Source of the DNA: Utricularia gibba | Lineage: Eukaryota; Streptophyta; Magnoliopsida; Lamiales; Lentibulariaceae | DNA length: 35,972 nt | Assembly: GCA_002189035.1 (NCBI GenBank) | Contig: NEEC01000089.1 | Coordinates: forward strand, 1-35,972 | Reading direction: 5' to 3' | Part shown: one piece after another, positions 4,000 through 32,655 of the stretch | Layout: each line of letters begins with the position of its first letter | Position numbering within the stretch: the stretch's first letter is position 1 | Notes under the pieces: model-generated | What the model was told of the DNA's origin: nothing | Seen by the model: the letters and a program-made list of their open reading frames with translations, nothing else | Database searches by the model: none | Translations under genes and position numbers: made by a program

Positions 4000-6727
4000 C
4001 TATCTCGGGCCCGACAGTTCCATAGCCTCGACCATGGACGACTCCTCGAAGTAATCGGAATACCGTTCCGGCGGCAAGTTAAACGACCGCTGCCGTGGGC
4101 TCTCTTCTACACTCAGGGATTGCTCCCATTTCTCGGCAAGCCCATCGCCTTCAAGCATTCTCAAAACCTCGGACATCTTCGGCCTGTAAGAAGGATCGAA
4201 TTGTGTGCACAGGAGGGCCACCCGCACCATTTCTTCCAGCTCCATACCATCGAAGTCGTTCTTCAGTTCTTTATCCACCATCAGATTCAGTTTCCCATCC
4301 TGGTGAAGCTTTCTTACCTGAATGAACCACAAAATCAAGTATTGAAGGGATTTTGGTGCCTGGGTTTGAAGTAGCGATAGAACAACATACCCAGTCGAGA
4401 ATGGCGCCTTTCTGGCTCGCCCCACGTCCGAAATCAACAGCTTTCTGGCCGGTGATGAGTTCCAGGAGTAGGATTCCAAACCCGAAGACATCAGTTTTTT
4501 CAGATGATTGGCCGGTGGAGAGATACTCTGGCGCGATATGGCCGACAGTGCCACGGACTGCAGTGGTGACATGAGAGTCCCGGTGGTCCAAAAGCTTGGC
4601 TAAACCAAAATCTCCGACCACCGGCTCAAATCCTCTTCTAACAAAATGTTGGCTGCTTTCACATCACGGTGAATGATTTTGGGGTCACATTGTTCATGCA
4701 AATAAACGAGGCCCCGTGCAGTTCCAAGGGCAACACTCTTCCTCCTCGGCCAATCCAAAATCGGCCGCCCGTGACTCTGATCTGAAACTCAGACAAACCA
4801 GACATCACATGTTAAAGTTCATATTCTTGTCCAAGTGAACTGAGATCAAGCAATCACCTCTTAGTCTTGACGCAACGCTACCATTAGGCAGATACGGGTA
4901 AACGAGGAGGCGCTCGTTCTCCGTGGAGCAGAAGCCCCAGAGACGAAGAAGATTTCTGTGGACTGCTAAACTGATAAGCTCTACTTCTGTCTGAAACTGG
5001 GCTTCGCCCCGACAGCGTTGAAGTCGTTTAATCTTTTTACCGCAACCACTGTGCCATTGCCAAGCCGTCCTTTGTATACAGTACCGAATCCTCCCCTTCC
5101 GAGAATGTTTTTGGAGTTGAAATTATCCGTTGCTGCCTTCAGCTCCTTGAAACTAAATCTTCTCAGATGACCTAAACGTATTTCTGGGTCGGATTGATCT
5201 GCCAAAAAGAAAAAAATTTTACAGAACAATCGGAAGGATTGAAGAATTTGAATGACTTCGACAGCATACCGTGATCATCGAAGACTATTTGTTGATTCCG
5301 TCTGAACCCCCACCAGACAAACAAGCCAAGCAATACAATGGAGAGGAAACCAGCGATGCTTGCACTAATAGCAATGGTAACAAGATGTTTCGATCTGGAC
5401 TCCGATGGACCTGAAAACCCAACAAGTAAATACAAAAAACATTGGAGTACCTCTGTAAATCCAGCTACTTACTTTTTAAAGCGTCTGGGGGAAAGGATAA
5501 TGGTTCAGGGTACACAACTGTGCAGTTGTCTGGAGAACTAATCCCACAGATAAGTGGATTTCCATTAACTCTAAAAGCAAAGCAAAATCATGAACCAGCC
5601 ATAATCAGTACAGAAGAGAAATACAGAAAGGAAGGGGATGACTCACTTGAAGGTTCTAGCAGAAACTCTTGGTGGCGATCCACTAAGATTATTGAAAGAA
5701 AGATCTCTGCAGCAATTCATGGACAGTAATACGTGAGATACTCTATTACTGAACTACAGTTCGTAATGCGAGGTCAAAAAGCGAATCGAACAGTATAAAT
5801 CGGGTAAGCCAAAAGAAACCACGTACAAAAGTGTGAGGCTTTGGACTTTAGAAAGAGTAGCGGGAATGGGCCCGGTAAGAGTGTTGTTGTTCAGCCGCCT
5901 GACTTGCTCAAGGAAAGACAAGCACATGAGAGCAATCTTCATGTTGAGAATGATTTAAACTCCAAATCTACGTTACTCACAGATACTTCAAACTCGTGAG
6001 ATCTCCAAGAGAAGATGGAATTTCTCCAGTGAGCTTGTTTTGAGAGATCAAGAGTCTGAAGCTTCTCCAGCTTCCCGATAACATCAGGAATTGGACCTGA
6101 GATTTCATTGTTCTGCAGTGACCTGCAATGGCCCTAGCCATCAATGTAAATCAATTTAAACAATACTGGAAACAAGGGAATCTTACACAGATTGCAAACG
6201 CGTGAGATTTCCTATTCCTGTTGATATGATTCCGGACAAACTCAGGCTAGGCATCTCTCTGAAAGGGAGAAGCAGCATCATTCCACTGTAGATTAACTAG
6301 GAACTCGAAAATATTTTTCTAATTGATAAGCAGCTTTCTTACAGAGCAAAAACATATCCATCTGGTGAACAAGTAATAGTCCTCCAGCTGCATGGATCTA
6401 CAGAGTTAGCATCCCAATTCTCCAGGACGTTGTAAGGATCACGCAAGTCATTCTTGATTGAAATCAAAGCAACAACTGCAAGCAGTTAACACGAAGCTCA
6501 CAATTGCTGCCAATTATTGCAGATAAAACACAGGTAACTCGAAGAACTGTGCGCTCGAGGGAAAAATTCATAGAAACTTTACTGATAAGAAACGACCAGA
6601 AACTCGGAAGAAGAAGAAGCTAACCTTCATAGTTCACCCCCGATGGCGAGAGGGTGGAATAGGTGCTCTCAGTAGCTACTAAAACTAGGAAACTAATCCT
6701 TAGAAGAAAGGAAATGAGTTTCCCCAT
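4000..6727 (-). pseudogene. NIK: NIK-type LRR receptor-like kinase, broken by three indels
   Basis: Plasma-membrane LRR-II receptor kinase related to NSP-interacting kinases. Exons: 6727-6625 (signal peptide), 6475-6343, 6258-6187, 6122-5981, 5898-5827, 5706-5647, 5570-5473, 5410-5270 (membrane segment IAGFLSIVLLGLFVWWGF), 5198-4858, 4781-4391, 4317-4000. The ectodomain has DPCSW and about five LRRs. The kinase shows [32 protein letters not shown] and APEY, and ends in the family signature MELSGPR. Splice phases and the 133/72-nt exons match the family. Three lesions break the frame: a 2-nt loss near 6036-6041 (exon 142 instead of 144 nt), a 1-nt loss in a C run at 5007-5010, and a 1-nt loss near 4630-4640. 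Undoing them gives about 624 aa, the family length. All motifs are preserved, so either a very young pseudogene or consensus errors. Confidence 0.88.
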
Positions 6728-8575: not shown

Positions 8576-10059
8576 TCAATCTGCAGCAGCCCAAATCAGA
8601 TCGTTCTGGAAGATCCAATGGCAGACCTCTGTCTTTCCCGGGCTGGAGCGCAGTGCCTGGAAGGCTGCGTGGTCGGGGCTCCAGGAAGAAGTATCCTCAT
8701 GGCAGATGGCAACGCCATGGTTAACCTGGGACTTCGTTTTGGGATCCAGGATGTCGGCTTCGTAGACCCGGACGCCATTGACAGAGTGGCAGTAGTAGAG
8801 CAGGTATGGATAGAGTGTCTGATGACACGAGACTGAGTTGGTCACTTCTCCACCATTGATCCCTTTCACGTCTCCCAGTAAGATCACGCCATTGGAGCCG
8901 GCCGGGGTATCCATGGTTCGAACTTCCGCGTTTCGGCCCAGGATGAAGGTGGCGAAGTCGATCATGTCCTCGATCGACGCCACGCACCGCTTGGTTTCGC
9001 CTCGGTTGGGGACACGCTCGCAGCCCTGGGTCGCGTCGGAGATTATTTTGGACATGCTTGAGTCATTCGCAGCGTGAAAAATAGTTCTGATTTCGGAGAT
9101 CTTGGAGGAGGCGAAGGGCAGCTTCGAGACGATGGCGCGGGGCAAGAATGACCTTCTGGGCTTCTGATCGATAAAATCCGGCATCCGCAACTGGGTACCG
9201 GGTTTCAACATGGCCTCCCGGAAGAATATCCCCGGCGGCGGCGCCGGCTTGTTTATCCCCTTATAGCCTTCGAAGTCCTTGTGGTAGTGGTTGTATTCTT
9301 TGAACTCCGGAGGAAAGTCCGCCGGAGGCTTTTCATGTCCCTATTCAGAACACAGCTTTGCACTTTAAGTACAAATTAAACAAAAATATTTGTCAAAAAA
9401 TAATTAACTAAATTCATTTCGCTATTATAAATTATTATTTTATTAATATTTAAATTTGAATTTTGTAATAAATGCACGATTTCAACGTGTTTACCTCTTT
9501 ACTGCCTCCCTTTTGGTTGTATGTCTGGAATTGAGGCGTTTTATTTTCCTGTTTTAAAAATAAACATGCTCAAGAAAACAGAAGGAATTAAAAAATGAAT
9601 TTATACACAAGCTGCTTTTTACCTTTTGATCTTCCAGTTCTGGGGAGTCCTCGTGGTGTTTGAAACACATGAGGTTCGCCTGTGCGCAGAACACCGGCAG
9701 TCGTTGCGACAGGGCTTTCGGGTCATCGGCAATCTTACGGAATTCGGCGAACTGCGCCGCCGTGAGCGGTGACGCCTTATCCAGCAAGAACCCCGAGAGC
9801 GGTGCATCGTTGGTGACATGCTTTTCCCAGTAACTAAACAGATAAGCTTTAGGCGTCGACGGAATTTTCTCTCCTCCTCCGGCGACCCTTCCCACCTTCA
9901 GGATAATATTTGTGTTTTGGTTAAACACCGTGCAACTAGTTGTGCAACTAACAGATGAGCAAAGCGTGGAAGCTTATGATTCCTTACATGGGAAATTAGA
10001 GGTACGGCGAAGGCCAACAGCCACATCAGGCGGCGGTGGAGTGGATGATCAGACGCCAT
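8576..10059 (-). CDS. BURP gene A: PG1beta-type BURP-domain protein, one FxxY mini-exon
   Basis: Secreted BURP-domain protein of the PG1beta clade, intact, 387 aa. Exons: 10059-9988 (signal peptide), 9895-9623, 9548-9495, 9340-8576; all joins are in frame. Exon 2 carries the clade's N-terminal domain (TPKAYLFSYWEKHV, DKASPLTAAQF). The 54-nt mini-exon encodes FQTYNQKGGSKE, and the last exon opens with FKEYNHYHKDFEGY, so two or three aromatic FxxY-like motifs precede the BURP domain. The domain has CHQTLYPYLLYYCH, then AICHEDTSSW and VCHWIF, giving CHX10CHX27CHX25CH, the copper/His-Cys signature. Compared with the roughly 630-aa PG1beta family it has lost nearly the whole FxxY array. Only 285 bases separate its start from gene B's stop. 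Wall structural protein or BURP cyclase/precursor: undecided. Confidence 0.87.
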
Positions 10060-10344: not shown

Positions 10345-11906
10345 TCAGTCTGCAACCACCCATGTCAGATCATTCTGAAAGATCCAATGACAGACCTCGA
10401 TCTCACCCGGGGCGGAGCCCAGGGCGGCGAAAGCCGGATGGTTCGAGCTCCAGGAAGAAGTATCCTCATGACAAACAGCAACCCCATGGTTGATCTTGGC
10501 CTTCGTTTTCAGATCCAGGAGGTCGGATTCATAGACCCGAATGCCATTAACGGAGTGGCAGTAGTAAAGCAAGTAGGGATAAAGGGTTTGATGGCACGAA
10601 ACGGACTTGGTCACTCTTCCACCGTTGATTCCTCTGACGTTACCCAGTAGCACCGTGGCATTGGAGCCTGCTGCTCCATCCATGGTTCGAACAACCACGT
10701 CTCGGCCAAGGACGATTGTGGCAAAGTCGATCATGTCCTCGATCGACGCCACGCATCGCTTCGTCTCGCCCTGGTTAGGGGCTCGCTCGCAATCCTCGAT
10801 TGCCTCCGTGAACATTTTGGACTTGCTTGAGTCGTCTTGCGCGTGAAAAATAAACTTGATATCGGATATCTTGTCGGAGGAGAACGGCAGCTTAGAGATG
10901 ATGCGGCGCGGCAGAAATGACCTTATGGGCTTTCTGTCTATGAAGTCCGGCATGAGGATCGGGGCCCCGGATTTCAGCGTCGCCTCTCTGAAGAATATGC
11001 CCGGCGGTACCCGCTTGTTGCCGTCCGCGTCCTTGAGGTACTCGTTGTAGCGTTTGAATTTGGTGCCGGAATATATCGGCTTTTCCGGCTGTCCAAAATA
11101 ATGTACCAATTTTAAAATATGAAAAAAAATGCATTTTTTTTCCAAATTAAAGTCATTTTCAATAATCTGCAGCATAATTTCAATACCTTCTTAGGACCTC
11201 CTTTATTGTAATTCTGGAAATCGACATCCAGTAATTCTGGTTTTATATTTTCCTGATAATAAATGGAAGAAAAATAATTCAAATAAGAATAAATGTTTTT
11301 TTCTTACAAAAAAAAATTATTTATTTTAAATTATAAAATTAAATCCTGTAATTACTTCCATCAGCTGAAGAAGAAACTTCGTTTGTTACCTTTTGATTTT
11401 TCTGAGAGTCGCCCCTGCGATACTCGTTGTAGAGAATGAAAGCGATAACCAAGGATGTGTTCTTAACACTTTCCACAGAATCGGGAAAGCACATGAGGTT
11501 AGCCTGTGAACAAAGCTCCGGCAACCGCTCCGACAGGGCTTTCGGATCATCGGAGACCTTTAAGAACTCAGCGTACTGCGCCGCCGTGAGGGGCGACGCC
11601 TTATCCATCAAGAACTCCGATTTGGGTAAGCCACCAGCGACATGCTCTTCCCAGTAACGAAGGAGATAAGCTCGAGGAGTTAACAGATGATCCTCGGGTT
11701 TACCAGAATGAACTCCTCCACCTACCCTTCCCACCTGCATCCATTATCACAAAGAAAAGTAAGCTACTTCACTCAGTCCAGGAAACAAAACCGAGTTCGG
11801 GATCTCTCACGTTGGAAATTAGAGCGAAGACGATGACCACCGTCGACAAGTGGAGGCGCCACTGACGAGAAGCGGCGGGTGCCGCCGAGGAGGTTATGGG
11901 AAGCAT
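10345..11906 (-). CDS. BURP gene B: PG1beta-type BURP-domain protein, one FxxY mini-exon
   Basis: Secreted BURP-domain protein, intact, 416 aa. Exons: 11906-11811 (signal peptide), 11734-11390, 11252-11187, 11088-10345; every join keeps phase 0. Exon 2 holds the N-terminal domain (LTPRAYLLRYWEEHV, MDKASPLTAAQYAEF) and ends with FILYNEYRRGD. The 66-nt mini-exon encodes DVDFQNYNKGGPKK, and the last exon begins with TKFKRYNEYLKD. Thus three FxxY motifs remain, against 21 in gene F. The BURP domain is complete: CHQTLYPYLLYYCH, AVCHEDTSSW, VCHWIF. A TATA box sits about 50 bases before the ATG. Mini-exon and flanking phases match genes A and E, so these three share an exon plan that F lacks. Confidence 0.88.
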
Positions 11907-23494: not shown

Positions 23495-26335
23495 TCAGTC
23501 TGCAATGACCCACGTCAGATCGTTCTCGAAGATCCAGTGGCAGACCTCGATCTTCCCGGGACTGGAACCCAACGAAACGAAGGCGGCGTGATCGGCGCTC
23601 CAGGAAGAGGTATCCTCGTGGCAGATGGCCACCGCATGGTTGATCTTGGACTTGGTTTTTGCATCCAGGATATCGGCTTCGTAGACGCGGATGCCGTTCA
23701 CCGAGTGGCAGTAGTAGAGTAGGTAGGGATACAGGCTCTGGTGGCACGAAACGGACTTGGTCAATCTCCCGCCGTTGATGGCTTTCACATCACCCAGCAG
23801 GACATTGGTGTTGGATCCGGCCTTGTTTTCCATTGTACGGGCGACCACCTTCTGGCCCAGCACCAGGGTGGCGAAGTCGACCATGCCCTCGATCGACGCC
23901 ACGCACCGCTTCGTCTCGCCCACGTTGGGCTCCCGCTCGCAGTCTCCGAGTGCCTCGGTGAACATTTTGGACATGCTTGAGTCGTCGCCGGCGTGAAAGA
24001 TCTTCTTGATATCAGGCAGCTTGGAGGAGGCGAAGGGCAGCTTTGAGACGATGGCGCGCGGCAGGAACGACCTTGCCGGCTTCTTGTCGGTGAAGTCGGG
24101 CATGGTTATCTCGGCTCCCGGCTTCAGCGTCGCCTCCCTGAAGAAGATCCCCGGCGGCACCCAATTGGTAACCTTTTTACTATCCCCCGTTTCCTTCTTG
24201 TAGTGGTTATAGCGCTTAAAGCGAATATCAGTGTCAACCCCTCGCTGTTAAAAAAAAAAGTTACCCTTCGGAATTTAACCATAACAACATTTTTTCCCAC
24301 GGTAAAAACTTTCTTACCGCAGCATCTACTTGGCTGTCCTTGTGGTAGTGGTTGATATCCACCAATTGAGCCGCGGTGAATTCCTGAAAGGAAAAAGAGT
24401 TAAAAAATTTCTATCCCTCTGCTTATTAAATTTCACCTCGGTTTACCTCTTTGTGTCCTCCCTTTTGGTGATAGTGTGTGAAGCTAATATCCGGCTTCAC
24501 TTCTTCCTGCTTAAACGATCAAAACAATTCATAAGCAGTAAAAAACTTTAGTCACCTTCGGGCAACCGGTTTACCTTCTTGTGGCCACCCTTTTGGTGGT
24601 AGCGTGAAAACCTGATATCTGTGACCTCGGGCTTCACCTCCTCTTCCTGTGAACATGAAGACCGGTAACGTTAAAAAAAAAAAAAAAGTAAAATCTTGTT
24701 GTTACTGTTAGAGGTTGGTATTTTTTAATTTACCTGTTTGTGACCTCCCTTTTGATGGTAATGGTTGAAGCTGATGTCCTTGACTGCTTCAGGCTTTATC
24801 TCGTCTTCCTGTAATAATATACAGTAAATTAGTTAAAATTCTTTTTTTAACCTTTAATATTCTTCCTTTTTTTAGAAAAATAATTATTTCTTAATAGAAA
24901 AAGCAACGAATTTTATAACTAATTTACCATTTTGTGGCCACCCTTTTGGTGGTAACGGTGAAAGCTGATATCTTGGACTGCCTCAGGCTTTATCTCGTCT
25001 TCCTGTAATAATATACTGTAAATTAGTAAAAATTCTTTTTTTTAACCTTTAATATTCTCCCTTTTTTTAGAAAAATAATTATTTCTTCATAGAAAAAGCA
25101 ACGAATTTTATAACTAATTTACCATTTTGTGGCCACCCTTTTGGTGGTAACGGTGAAAGCTGATATCTTGGACTGCCTCAGGCTTTATCTCGTCTTCCTG
25201 TAATAATATACTGTAAATTAGTAAAAATTCTTTTTTTTAACCTTTAATATTCTCCCTTTTTTTAGAAAAATAATTATTTCTTCATAGAAAAAGCAACGAA
25301 TTTTATAACTAATTTACCATTTTGTGGCCACCCTTTTGGTGGTAACGGTGAAAGCTGATATCTTGGACTGCCTCAGGCTTTATCTCGTCTTCCTGTAATA
25401 ATATACTGTAAATTAGTAAAAATTCTTTTTTTTAACCTTTAATATTCTCCCTTTTTTAGAAAAATAATTATTTCTTGATAGAAAAAGCAACGAATTTTAT
25501 AGTTAATTTACCATTTTGTGGCCACCGTGTTGGTGGTAACGGTGGAAGCTGATGTCCTTGACTGCCTCAGGCTTTATCTCGTCTTCCTGTAATAATATAC
25601 AATAAATTAGTAAAAATTCTTTTTTTAACCATAAATGTCTTCCTTTTTTAAAAAAACTAACTATTTATTAATAAAAATGAATTTTAAAATTAAATTACCA
25701 TTTTGTGGCCACCCTTTTGGTGGTAACGGTGGAAGCTGATATCCTTGGCAACAAGCCTTGCATCTTCCTGTTAAAAGAAGCGGGTAAAAGTAAATACATA
25801 TTAAAACAGTAAAAATTATTTACCCTTTCATTATGTAACGTTTTACCTGCTGGTGATCATCGGTAGATCGGGGCGGTAATGGTTGTAGCCGTGAAAATCG
25901 ATGTCCGACGTCTTCTCGGTGGCGCTGCCGGCGGAATTAGGAAAGCACATAAGGTTGGCCTGTGAACAGAGCTCCGGCATGTGGGCCGACAGGGCGTTCT
26001 GATCGTCGGCGATCTTGTTGAAGGTGGCGTATTGGGCAGCGGTGAGCGGGGACGCCTTATCCATCAGAAACTCGGACTTGGGTAGACCGGTGGTGACGTG
26101 CTTCTCCCAGTAGCTCAGGGCATAAGCTTTGGGCGTCAACAGGTTCTCAACTCCGATAACCCCGACCACCTTCAATCATTAAATACAGAATAATGCTTGG
26201 GTTTTGGGGAAGCCACAGTAAAGGAAAAAGATTTCTTACATTGGAGATCAGAACGGAGGCGAGGATGCACAGCAACGTGAGCCGGTGGTGGAGCGGCTGA
26301 GGAGAAGGGGCGCCGGCCGAGGATATGGCAGACAT
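23495..26335 (-). CDS. BURP gene E: BURP-domain protein with nine amplified FxxY mini-exons, one frameshift
   Basis: Twelve exons: 26335-26240 (signal peptide), 26169-25847 (N-terminal domain, ending FHGYNHY), nine mini-exons 25767-25699, 25586-25512, 25392-25318, 25197-25123, 25002-24928, 24808-24734, 24646-24575, 24506-24447, 24383-24318, and 24244-23495 (FKRYNHYKK plus BURP domain with CHQSLYPYLLYYCH, AICHEDTSSW, VCHWIF). All mini-exons are 60-75 nt and phase 0 at both ends, so any can be skipped or copied without frame change. They encode FHRYHQKGGHKM (four copies), FHRYHQHGGHKM, FNHYHQKGGHKQ, FSRYHQKGGHKK, FTHYHQKGGHKE and a degenerate INHYHKDSQ. Exon 2 is 323 nt; one base seems missing at the C run (minus strand) at 25870-25873, after NHY, putting the mini-exons out of frame. 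With 324 nt the product would be about 603 aa. Consensus error or recent loss of function. Confidence 0.82.
24928..25511 (-). repeat. Three tandem 195-bp exon-plus-intron units in BURP gene E
   Basis: Mini-exons starting at 25392, 25197 and 25002 recur at 195-bp spacing, and the next exon upstream (25586) is 194 bases away. The three exons are identical and their introns differ at only a few positions, mostly in T runs. The copy at 25586-25512 is slightly diverged (K to H, synonymous changes). This is a recent unequal-crossover-type expansion in an older series of mini-exons. Confidence 0.9.
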
Positions 26336-27870: not shown

Positions 27871-28960
27871 CTTGTACACAACACACACACACAACTTTTA
27901 GCACGTGTTTTCCAACCCGCCAGACCCAAAGATACCATCTTATATATACATTAAGTAGTGTTCTAAAATCTTTAGAATTTATTTTTACTTTTTTAAAACT
28001 ATTTTTTAAAAATAGAAATGATAATTAAAAGTAAATTATTAATTATTTTTTTAAAATTAACTTTTGTAATATAATTTCAAAAGTATTTTTTGATATAATT
28101 TCTTTTAAAATTGTTATTGTTCTATAACAAAATTATTTTTATTTTTAAAAAATAGAAATAAAGTTCAAAAATTTTACATTAACACTGTTTTATATTATAT
28201 TAAAAAATTTTAAAATTTATTATTTCACATTACTTTTAAGAATTTTCAATATAATAACTTTTCCTTCAAAATAAAATATTCAACTTAATAGTACATATTA
28301 ATATTGAATTAATTAATTAGATTTTTCGTTAATGATGAAATACAATATCATTTTTTTATTTCAAAATATTTTTTATTCAATTCTTTATTATAATATTTTA
28401 ATAATATTCTATATGAACACACAAATATTTATTTTTAAACTAGTTATTTTTATGTAAATTAATTACTATTTGATGATATGTCTTTTAGAAAATCGTTTTT
28501 GATAAGAGTATCTTTACTTATTTTTGGAAATGCTGACATTGGCATTTCCGAAAATTGAGTAATTAAGTTTCTATTACGTTTGTATTTATTTTCGGAAATC
28601 ATAATATTAAAATAATATTAAAATAAATATTATAAGCTACATTTTAAGCTATTTTAGGAATGAAATCAGGTTTTATTATTTTCGTTTCTAAAAAAAATAA
28701 GAAACAAATTTACTTATTTACGAAAACATTTGCCCTATTTTCGAAAAAATCACATCAATATTTACAAAAATAAATAAAGATGCTTTAATACATATTAAAT
28801 GTAAAAATTTAAGTTTTACAACTTTTTTAAAAATAAAAAATTACAATTTAAATGTCATTTATGTCTAGTCGTAATAAAAAAAACTCAGAAAATCAACCGT
28901 AAACCCTAAAAAACGCAAGAAATGAAATCGATTCCTGTAGGAGAAGAACGACACCCCATC

Positions 28961-29146
28961 CAACACTTTGGCTGCATACCCCCCGCCCGCCACCATTAGA
29001 ATCCAAGAACCGGAATTGATATCATCCAACACTTTGGCTGCATACCCCCGCCCGCCACCATTAGAATCCAAGAACCGGAATTGATATCATTCAAAACTTT
29101 GGCTGCATACCCTCGTCACCATTAGAATCCAAGAATCCGAATTGAT
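28961..29146. repeat. Tandem repeat, unit about 66 bp, nearly three copies
   Basis: Units start at 28961, 29027 and 29092, each with ACTTTGGCTGCATACC and then CACCATTAGAATCCAAGAA. The first two differ by a single base, the third is shortened and diverged. No coding role is apparent. Confidence 0.85.
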
Positions 29147-30683: not shown

Positions 30684-32655
30684 TTAATCCGCGACGACCC
30701 ATGTCATATCGTTCTCGAAGATCCAATGACACACTTCGATCTTACCCGGGCTGGGGCCCAAGGCGATGAAGGCCCCATGATCTGGGCTCCATGAGGAGGT
30801 GTCCAGGTGGCAAATAGCCACGCCGTGGTTGATCTTGGACCGGGTGTTCGGGTCCAGGATATCCGCTTCGTAGACCCGGACCTTGGGAACCGAATGGCAG
30901 TAGTAGAGCATGTACGGATACAGGCTTTGGTGGCACGACACCGACATCGTGACGTTGCCACCGTTGATCCCTTTTACTTCGCCCAGTAAGACTTGAGAGT
31001 TGGCGCCGGCGGTTGTGTCGGTGGAGCGTACCGTCACGCTCCGGCCCAACACGGACGTCGCGAAGTCGATCATGTCCTCGATGGACGCCACGCACCGCTT
31101 CGTTTCACCCGCACTCGGGGCGCGTTCGCAGTCGTGCAGCGCATCGACGGCCATTTTAGAAATGCTTGATTCCTCCCCTGCATGGAAAATCTTCTTGATC
31201 TCGTGCATCTTTGAGGATGAAAACGGCAGCTTCGAGACGATGCCGCGCGGCAAGAATGATCTTTTCGGCATCTTGTCTCGGATGTCCGGCATCGGCATTA
31301 GAGTGCCCTCTTTCAGCATCGCCTCCCTGAAGAATTTCCCCGGTTCCACCCATTTGCTTACCTTTGTTGCGTCCACGGATGCTGCCGGAGGTGAGCTGTC
31401 GTTGCGGTAACTGGAGAATGTGGTGGGGGTGGCCTTGTCGTACTCTTTGAACGTGTTGTTCACACCGTATATCTTGAAATCGACGGTTGTGGCCTTGGCG
31501 CCTTTGCCGTAGCCGGTGAATTTGTCGGTGCCCTCGTTGAAACTTTGGCCGTAATTCACGAATCCCAACTCCGAGCTGCTAGATCCCTTGCCGTAGGATT
31601 CGAAACTGTCATCCCCGACGTTGGATTGATTTCTGTAACTTTTGAAAGTATCTGAAGCACCGCTTCCGCCGGTGCCGTAGTTGCGGAAATTATTCTGCGG
31701 CACGTTGCCGTCGTCCCCGTAAGAGGTGAATGTATCATTTGCTTCTTTACCATGCTCCCCGTAGTTCCTGAAATTGCTGCCGATTACGTTGGATAATCCA
31801 CCTCCGTAGCTTGTGAATGTGTTGTCGATGTCGCTACCCTTCTTCCCGTAGCTAGCGAATGTCTGGTCTCCGGCGTTGGCTTCGTCGGAATAGGAGGTGA
31901 ATTGTTGATCCCGGTCATTGCCTCCATCGGAATAGGATGCGAATCTGAGATTGGGGTTGTTCGTTTGCTTGCCGTAATTACTGAATTGGCCCTCACCCCC
32001 GCCGGCGCTGGTTCCGTAGGTGTTGAAGTTCTGGTCCACGACGTTGGAACCAGTGGCGTAGGCCACAAAACCATCGTTGTGGTCGGTGGAGTCGCGACTG
32101 TAGCGCCGGAAAGTATTCACAACCACGTTACCGTTTTCAGAGTATTTCTGGAAAGCATCGGCTCCTTTTACGCGGCCATCCCCGTAGCTGGTGAAGTTCT
32201 GTTCCGTATAACTCGCGAAATTAACATCGGTATCATGCTTCGCCAAACTCGGCGACAGATCAGGGAAACACAAGAGCTTCGCTCGTGCACAGAATTCCGG
32301 CAATTGCGCCGAAAGCGCGTTCCTATCGCCAGCGATTTTACTGAAGGCGGCGTACTGCGCCGCCGTCAGCGGCGACGCCTTGTCAATCAGAAGCGCCGGT
32401 TTCGGTAAATCATTGGCAATCCGTTTCTCCCAATACCGTAGCAGATAACCTCTGGGTGTGAACGGATTTGAATCCGCCAGGCGTCTTCCACCGGATACCT
32501 GCAGCAAGCCACACAGAAATCAGTGAGGATTCATTCCGGATACCGAACTTAATTCCGTTGCTAACCTCGGAAATCGAAATGCAAGCGATGAAAAGGAAGC
32601 ACAAGAGCCGACGGGCCGGAGATGAAGCCGACGCCGCGTGGGAAACGATCCCCAT
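30684..32655 (-). CDS. BURP gene F: canonical polygalacturonase-1 non-catalytic subunit beta (PG1beta)-like protein
   Basis: Intact 634-aa secreted protein, exons 32655-32566 (signal peptide) and 32498-30684; tomato PG1beta precursor is about 630 aa. Order: signal peptide (about 1-28), N-terminal domain with FTPRGYLLRYWEKRI and IDKASPLTAAQYAAF, a 21-fold FxxY array from about residue 124 (FASY, FTSY, FQKY, FRRY and so on to FSSY) with Gly/Asn/Ser-rich linkers, and a BURP domain with CHQSLYPYMLYYCH, AICHLDTSSW and VCHWIF (CHX10CHX27CHX25CH). PG1beta binds polygalacturonase in the wall and affects pectin breakdown. The ATG at 32655 is preferred over one at 32703, because the TATA box at 32709-32716 would place the latter upstream of transcription. 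This is the reference member for A to E. Confidence 0.95.

Follow-up and report, generated by a model that had tools for sequence, protein, structure and literature searches.

How does a protein repeat that usually occupies one exon come to be spread over a series of exons, and what might such a plan mean for the protein? The question is raised by gene E, one of six BURP genes that stand in a row on the minus strand of a 35,972-nucleotide stretch of Utricularia gibba DNA (contig NEEC01000089.1, positions 1-35972 of C112 in the 100 Mb assembly), referred to here as the window. The genes carry the letters A to F in order of rising coordinate, and the BURP domain takes its name from proteins that include PG1beta. 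Gene E runs from 26335 to 23495 and is modelled with 12 exons, nine of them mini-exons of which nearly every one holds a single FxxY motif. Our reading, in which we place moderate confidence, is that E encodes a PG1beta-type BURP protein with FxxY cassettes, one per exon, which would be modified by the protein itself and whose number would evolve by duplication of exon units.

Exon plan of gene E

Exon 1 (26240-26335) encodes a probable signal peptide, judged by eye, and ends in a phase 0 donor. Exon 2 (25847-26169) encodes the N-terminal segment and the first FxxY (DIDFHGYNHY). Nine mini-exons follow on the minus strand, between 25767 and 24318: mini-exon 1 (25699-25767; EDARLVAKDISFHRYHQKGGHKM), mini-exon 2 (25512-25586; EDEIKPEAVKDISFHRYHQHGGHKM), mini-exon 3 (25318-25392; EDEIKPEAVQDISFHRYHQKGGHKM), mini-exons 4 (25123-25197) and 5 (24928-25002), both identical to mini-exon 3, mini-exon 6 (24734-24808; EDEIKPEAVKDISFNHYHQKGGHKQ), mini-exon 7 (24575-24646; EEEVKPEVTDIRFSRYHQKGGHKK), mini-exon 8 (24447-24506; EEVKPDISFTHYHQKGGHKE) and mini-exon 9 (24318-24383; EFTAAQLVDINHYHKDSQVDAA). 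The last exon (23495-24244) carries one FxxY (DIRFKRYNHY) and the BURP domain, CHX10CHX27CHX25CH, with the stop codon at 23495-23497.

All nine mini-exons are 60-75 nucleotides long, divisible by three, in phase 0 at both ends and bordered by AG and GT, exactly where the first-pass annotation had placed them. Its further claim, that each carries FxxY, stands for eight of the nine; the ninth keeps D-I and Y-H and has lost the Phe. The FxxY motifs of exon 2 and of the last exon, one in each, come in addition to these eight and to that account. The units are mostly 24-25 amino acids long and rich in His, Lys and Glu, with an acidic spacer. The mini-exons have a guanine-plus-cytosine content of 0.45-0.53, against 0.13-0.38 in the introns, which around the mini-exons are AT-rich and 63-120 nucleotides long.

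The mini-exons look coding and recently duplicated. An exon rule that asks for FxxY, applied to a 1,603-base region and to its shuffles, returned 8 exons in the region; over 300 dinucleotide shuffles it averaged 0.03 and never exceeded 1. Among six distinct units, codon position 3 holds 12 of the 18 variable columns (hypergeometric P 1.7e-4, for units that are not independent of one another). Mini-exon 7 is 0.68-0.79 identical to mini-exons 1-6, whereas introns 7-10 are 0.23-0.36 identical to introns 2-6, which is shuffle level (shuffled mean 0.33). The third-position bias and the conservation of exon 7 beside such introns suggest coding constraint. The mutual identity of introns 3-6 (0.87-1.0) points to a recent tandem origin of units 2 to 6, and Tandem Repeats Finder marks a 195 bp exon-plus-intron repeat at 24726-25748 (no strand assigned; 5.3 copies, 93% match). 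Nei-Gojobori (NG86) estimates of nonsynonymous and synonymous divergence between units (dN 0.05-0.32, dS from 0.28 upward, 5 of 15 pairs not computable) were set aside because the units are too short for them to be relied on, and codon-position counts were used instead.

A second copy with fewer units

Contig C2 holds a copy of gene E that is nearly letter for letter the same outside the array; exon 1, 96 nucleotides there, is identical. This copy has ten exons, each a multiple of three, and an open frame of 553 amino acids with eight FxxY motifs. Its seven mini-exons correspond to unit 1, two of the type shared by units 3, 4 and 5, and units 6, 7, 8 and 9, two whole units fewer than the nine of the window copy. 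Unit 2 of the window copy has a sequence of its own (QHGG) and no counterpart on C2. Unit number thus seems, from this comparison, to change by gain or loss of whole exon-intron units at the level of DNA, and the two copies bear out the expectation that such units can come and go without breaking the frame.

Exon 2 measures 323 nucleotides in the window and 324 on C2. Gene F presents the reverse case, being open in the window and having its BURP match split across two frames in the C2 copy (C2:4841154-4841791); both cases could fairly be explained by base-level error in the assembly. Over their length, C112 and C2:4838001-4878000 are near-copies, with 97.7-99.7% identity in three long blocks and about 89-94% in most other long blocks. 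C2 is rearranged relative to C112, and further BURP genes sit between the first B-like gene and the A-like gene of C2.

Family membership and comparison with known systems

By its sequence, gene E probably encodes a PG1beta-type BURP protein, and its copper motif is intact. The BURP domain scores 219 bits against Pfam PF03181 (cut-off 27), and all four CH motifs are present at spacings of 10, 27 and 25, within the pattern CHX10CHX25-27CHX25-26CH. The spacing ranges hold for 21 of 22 BURP rows (x_C1 has 28 in the middle). E matches AhyBURP (8sy2) at E 4e-13, with the four CH motifs, which carry the copper-site His, aligned. FxxY repeats lie between the N-terminal segment and the BURP domain, as in the PG1beta-like subfamily, and the assignment of E as a PG1beta relative in the first-pass annotation is supported. 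A single-sequence AlphaFold model of the last exon was discarded (mean predicted local distance difference test 32.8, predicted template modelling score 0.24).

Where gene E departs from the PG1beta-like subfamily is in the trait of two exons with the repeats in one exon, since it has 12 exons in the window and 10 on C2. About two exons is the usual trait, not a strict criterion, in PMC6102523 (here and below, statements from published sources refer to the parts of them that were covered). In that survey of 125 BURP genes, PG1beta-like members have mainly two exons; one or three occur in a few genes of this subfamily and of two similar ones. Surveys of cotton and jujube give the same picture (PMC6615115, PMC9541082), and AtPGL genes have two (PMC4460304). 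A rice BURPIII gene with 18 exons is listed (PMC6102523), and the cotton survey (among PMC6615115 and PMC9541082) has BURP genes with up to nine exons, under names that do not place them in PG1beta. BURP genes with many exons therefore exist, known here by exon number alone. No PG1beta-like gene with one motif per exon was found in the parts of the BURP surveys and literature covered or among the matches listed, and of the listed matches on exon duplication none mentions BURP. The family is known, and the plan of one module per exon is new within the literature covered, in keeping with the view that no PG1beta relative of this kind has been described.

Gene F (30684-32519, minus strand) follows the ordinary PG1beta plan: a single open frame holds its 21 FxxY along with the BURP domain, in agreement with the first-pass annotation, which places these units in one exon. 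Set beside PG1beta and AtPGL1-3, the N-terminal segment is alike by eye between E and F, whereas two exons (mainly) stand against the 10-12 exons of E, with one FxxY per exon (PMC4460304, PMC6102523). In the mini-exon region of the C2 copy of E, His makes up 11.6%, Lys plus Arg 16.5% and Asp plus Glu 18.9%; the corresponding values for residues 96-395 of the F frame are 0.7%, 9.0% and 12.3%. The burpitide systems AhyBURP, ArbA2/ArbB2 and CamA1 share with E a BURP domain with copper-site CH motifs and repeated units of spacer plus core, the core ending in Tyr, but the core of E is FxxY inside a PG1beta-like protein, and E is known from the gene alone. ST proteins (DUF2775), putative cyclopeptide alkaloid precursors, are secreted, as the protein of E probably is, and resemble it in carrying tandem repeats of 25-26 amino acids, variable in number, with one xxxxY each; unlike in E, the repeats all lie in the second exon, and the layout described has no BURP domain (PMC11991032). 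The wider parallel in gene structure lies with proteins unrelated to E. Fibrillar collagens and other structural genes with one exon per repeat likewise use short symmetric exons to encode their repeat units.

Relatives with one mini-exon or none

The PF03181 profile search of the genome gave 27 matches; with four split pairs merged, these amount to 23 genes. The BURP tree, whose rows all come from this assembly, holds 22 of these 23 inferred genes, the C2 copy of F having been left out since its match is spread over two frames. Searching with the E-type mini-exon peptide gave matches in the two E loci only, among the best candidates scored. The single-type peptide found one mini-exon in each of six gene copies: A (9495-9548, minus strand, phase 0; ENKTPQFQTYNQKGGSKE) and B (11187-11252, minus strand, phase 0; ENIKPELLDVDFQNYNKGGPKK) in the window, three on C2 and one on C451. 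Its other matches were weak, to unit 7 of E and nothing else. The C451 mini-exon has a weak donor and was missed by the mini-exon scan, in which chance exons inside PG1beta-type repeats and other DNA were not counted.

On the tree, 19 of the 22 rows (E, its relatives and the PG1beta-type genes) group together (100/99), and the PG1beta-type genes form an inner branch (100/100, x_C1 and x_C412 included) that excludes E. Five relatives in which no mini-exon was found, namely C, D and three on C2, form one branch (90/90). A single unresolved fork gives rise to this branch, E, the A-like and B-like genes, the C451 gene and the PG1beta branch.

In genes of the branch without mini-exons (C, 16570-15527; D, 19997-18945; on C2 at 4853417 and 4870925), the BURP domain is preceded by a short linker of aromatic and basic character. 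Mean pairwise identity is 0.48 in the linker, compared with 0.91 in the N-domain and 0.90 in the BURP domain (6 pairs from four of the five genes, g55 being dropped for want of a single frame spanning it). This variable linker may be a fast-changing core peptide segment.

Proposed explanation

The protein of gene E is probably a secreted PG1beta-type BURP protein whose repeat region is split so that each FxxY unit has its own symmetric phase-0 mini-exon. The plan probably started from a single mini-exon, placed after exon 2 and before the BURP exon, an arrangement shown by genes A, B and relatives. Tandem duplication of this exon together with its intron would have followed in E, with unequal exchange between near-identical introns as the most likely mechanism, so that the number of modules could change, as between seven and nine, while the frame stayed open. 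A history in which the mini-exon was gained once, expanded in E and lost in the C/D branch is allowed by the tree but not shown by it; its starred branches force only one change in the mini-exon label.

What the modules might do is suggested by the chemistry of the family. In PG1beta, FxxY lies in a 14-residue repeat, and all identified FxxY Phe residues are 2 Da lighter, which was read as dehydro-Phe; the same shift is seen in PG1beta of alfalfa, hemp, Arabidopsis and maize, and the enzyme behind the mark was postulated, and called unknown, by the discoverers of the mark (PMC5313189). BURP domains are copper-dependent peptide cyclases (PMC12186524), and dehydro residues in plant peptides may stem from BURP action, according to one review (PMC10880069). 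Given the FxxY mark, the copper cyclases, the copper motif of E and its alignment with AhyBURP, each mini-exon may be read as encoding a single module on which the BURP domain of its own chain would act. Once modified, the His/Lys-rich repeats would bind the wall, and any attachment to acidic pectin or to metal could be pH-dependent, given the charged, His-rich character of the repeats.

A more specific proposal, which we regard as speculative and rather improbable, is that in the PG1beta family the copper BURP domain oxidises the FxxY motifs of its own chain, which leaves the loss of 2 Da, and that a bond from Tyr-O to Phe-C-beta (i to i+3) possibly forms first. Such a bond causes the same mass change as dehydro-Phe. 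Support comes from five-residue burpitide cores linked between positions 2 and 5 and from a fungal copper enzyme that joins Tyr-O to Phe-C-beta (PMC12186524), although section 8 of that source gives the ArbA2 link as Tyr4-Leu2. Against it, a b9 ion that contains the Phe and not the Tyr carries the loss of 2 Da (PMC5313189, figure 1), which speaks for dehydro-Phe, provided that the ether survives in the instrument.

Several results weigh against the reading of E as a self-modified, exon-per-module protein. In the window, the donor of exon 2 is out of phase with the mini-exons, owing to a one-base length difference from C2 near the exon end, a point absent from the first-pass annotation. Mini-exon 9 lacks the Phe and has no measurable similarity to the other units; its nucleotide identity to them (0.33-0.41) is that of shuffles (mean 0.32, maximum 0.47), so it is by position, phase and a short motif that it is placed in the series. 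The mini-exon label requires three changes on the BURP tree and forms one side of a branch in 0% of 200 bootstrap trees. The units of E, with mostly 24-25 amino acids, an acidic spacer and 12% His, are unlike the 14-residue PG1beta repeat, and the wall role may not carry over. No BURP domain that makes the FxxY modification was found in the literature covered, nor is FxxY mentioned among the listed matches on BURP cyclases and dehydro residues from 2022 on.

Alternative explanations

The difference between nine and seven units might itself be an assembly effect, a collapse or expansion of the near-identical 195 bp repeat. We consider this possible but not probable: units 3-5 are identical, the contigs hardly differ over the remainder of E, and single-base frame differences occur on both contigs in this gene row, but the distinct unit 2 (QHGG) is absent from C2, the array is just about 1.5 kb long, and C112 and C2 are also rearranged elsewhere. 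The one-base difference in exon 2, which breaks the phase, and the ninth unit without Phe could instead mark gene E as a decaying gene, with the mini-exons as relics of an array. This seems very unlikely in view of the open frame of the C2 copy, the bounds and lengths kept in all nine mini-exons and the third-position bias among units, and the reverse case of gene F fits base-level error in the assembly.

Two further explanations accept the mini-exons as functional. The first-pass annotation saw a splicing cassette, in which phase-0 mini-exons are skipped or included in combinations so that one gene yields proteins with differing numbers of FxxY. The exons are short, and any skip would keep the frame, all C2 exons and the nine window mini-exons being multiples of three. 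Acceptors (CAG) and donors (GTAA) are nevertheless uniform over the whole array, with no sign of weak, regulated exons, and the visible variation in motif number sits in the DNA, which makes such a cassette quite unlikely. Alternatively, E could be a fused burpitide precursor, each mini-exon comprising a recognition stretch and a core, and the modified FxxY cores being cut out as small cyclic peptides. A charged spacer, a four-residue core ending in Tyr and then His recall split precursors such as CamA1, with cores ILLY and FFFY followed by HG or HN (PMC12186524, table 1); multicore precursors are common among burpitides (PMC12186524), and the copper motif of E is intact. Yet no recognition feature is apparent in the validated fused cyclases (PMC12186524, in the parts covered), gene E lies beside PG1beta-type genes, and in tomato the mature protein consists of the repeat domain in a single chain (PMC5313189, PMC4460304). 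No protease site was identified, though no search aimed at one was made. On balance, we doubt the precursor role. A resemblance between KDIS in the mini-exons and KDIS in CamA2 (PMC12186524, table 1) was set aside, as the motif is short, stands at another distance from the core and could be due to chance.

Neighbouring features

At the low-coordinate end of the window, 54-620, 824-1171 and 1776-2069 hold a PMEI-domain protein and pieces of a PC-Esterase (Pmr5/Cas1p-type) protein, all over the Pfam cut-off; these neighbours are likewise cell-wall-associated by family. Pieces of a protein kinase domain lie at 4274-5274, at lower coordinates than the BURP row, with 4274-4663 over the Pfam cut-off and 4984-5274 under it. 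Between genes E and F, a 65 bp tandem repeat occupies 28957-29146 (3 copies, 91% match).

Implications for the BURP family

If the cross-link proposal were true, the loss of 2 Da on FxxY would be a trace of self-oxidation by BURP, and E would be a genome-encoded cassette in which every exon supplies one cross-linked core and the dosage of cores changes in evolution as exons are gained or lost. Gene E, with one FxxY per exon and copies with seven and nine mini-exons, forms together with its sister genes with one mini-exon or none a series for testing BURP modification module by module and the effect of module number. It also provides a case of growth by one repeat per exon in a family whose repeats usually occupy one exon.
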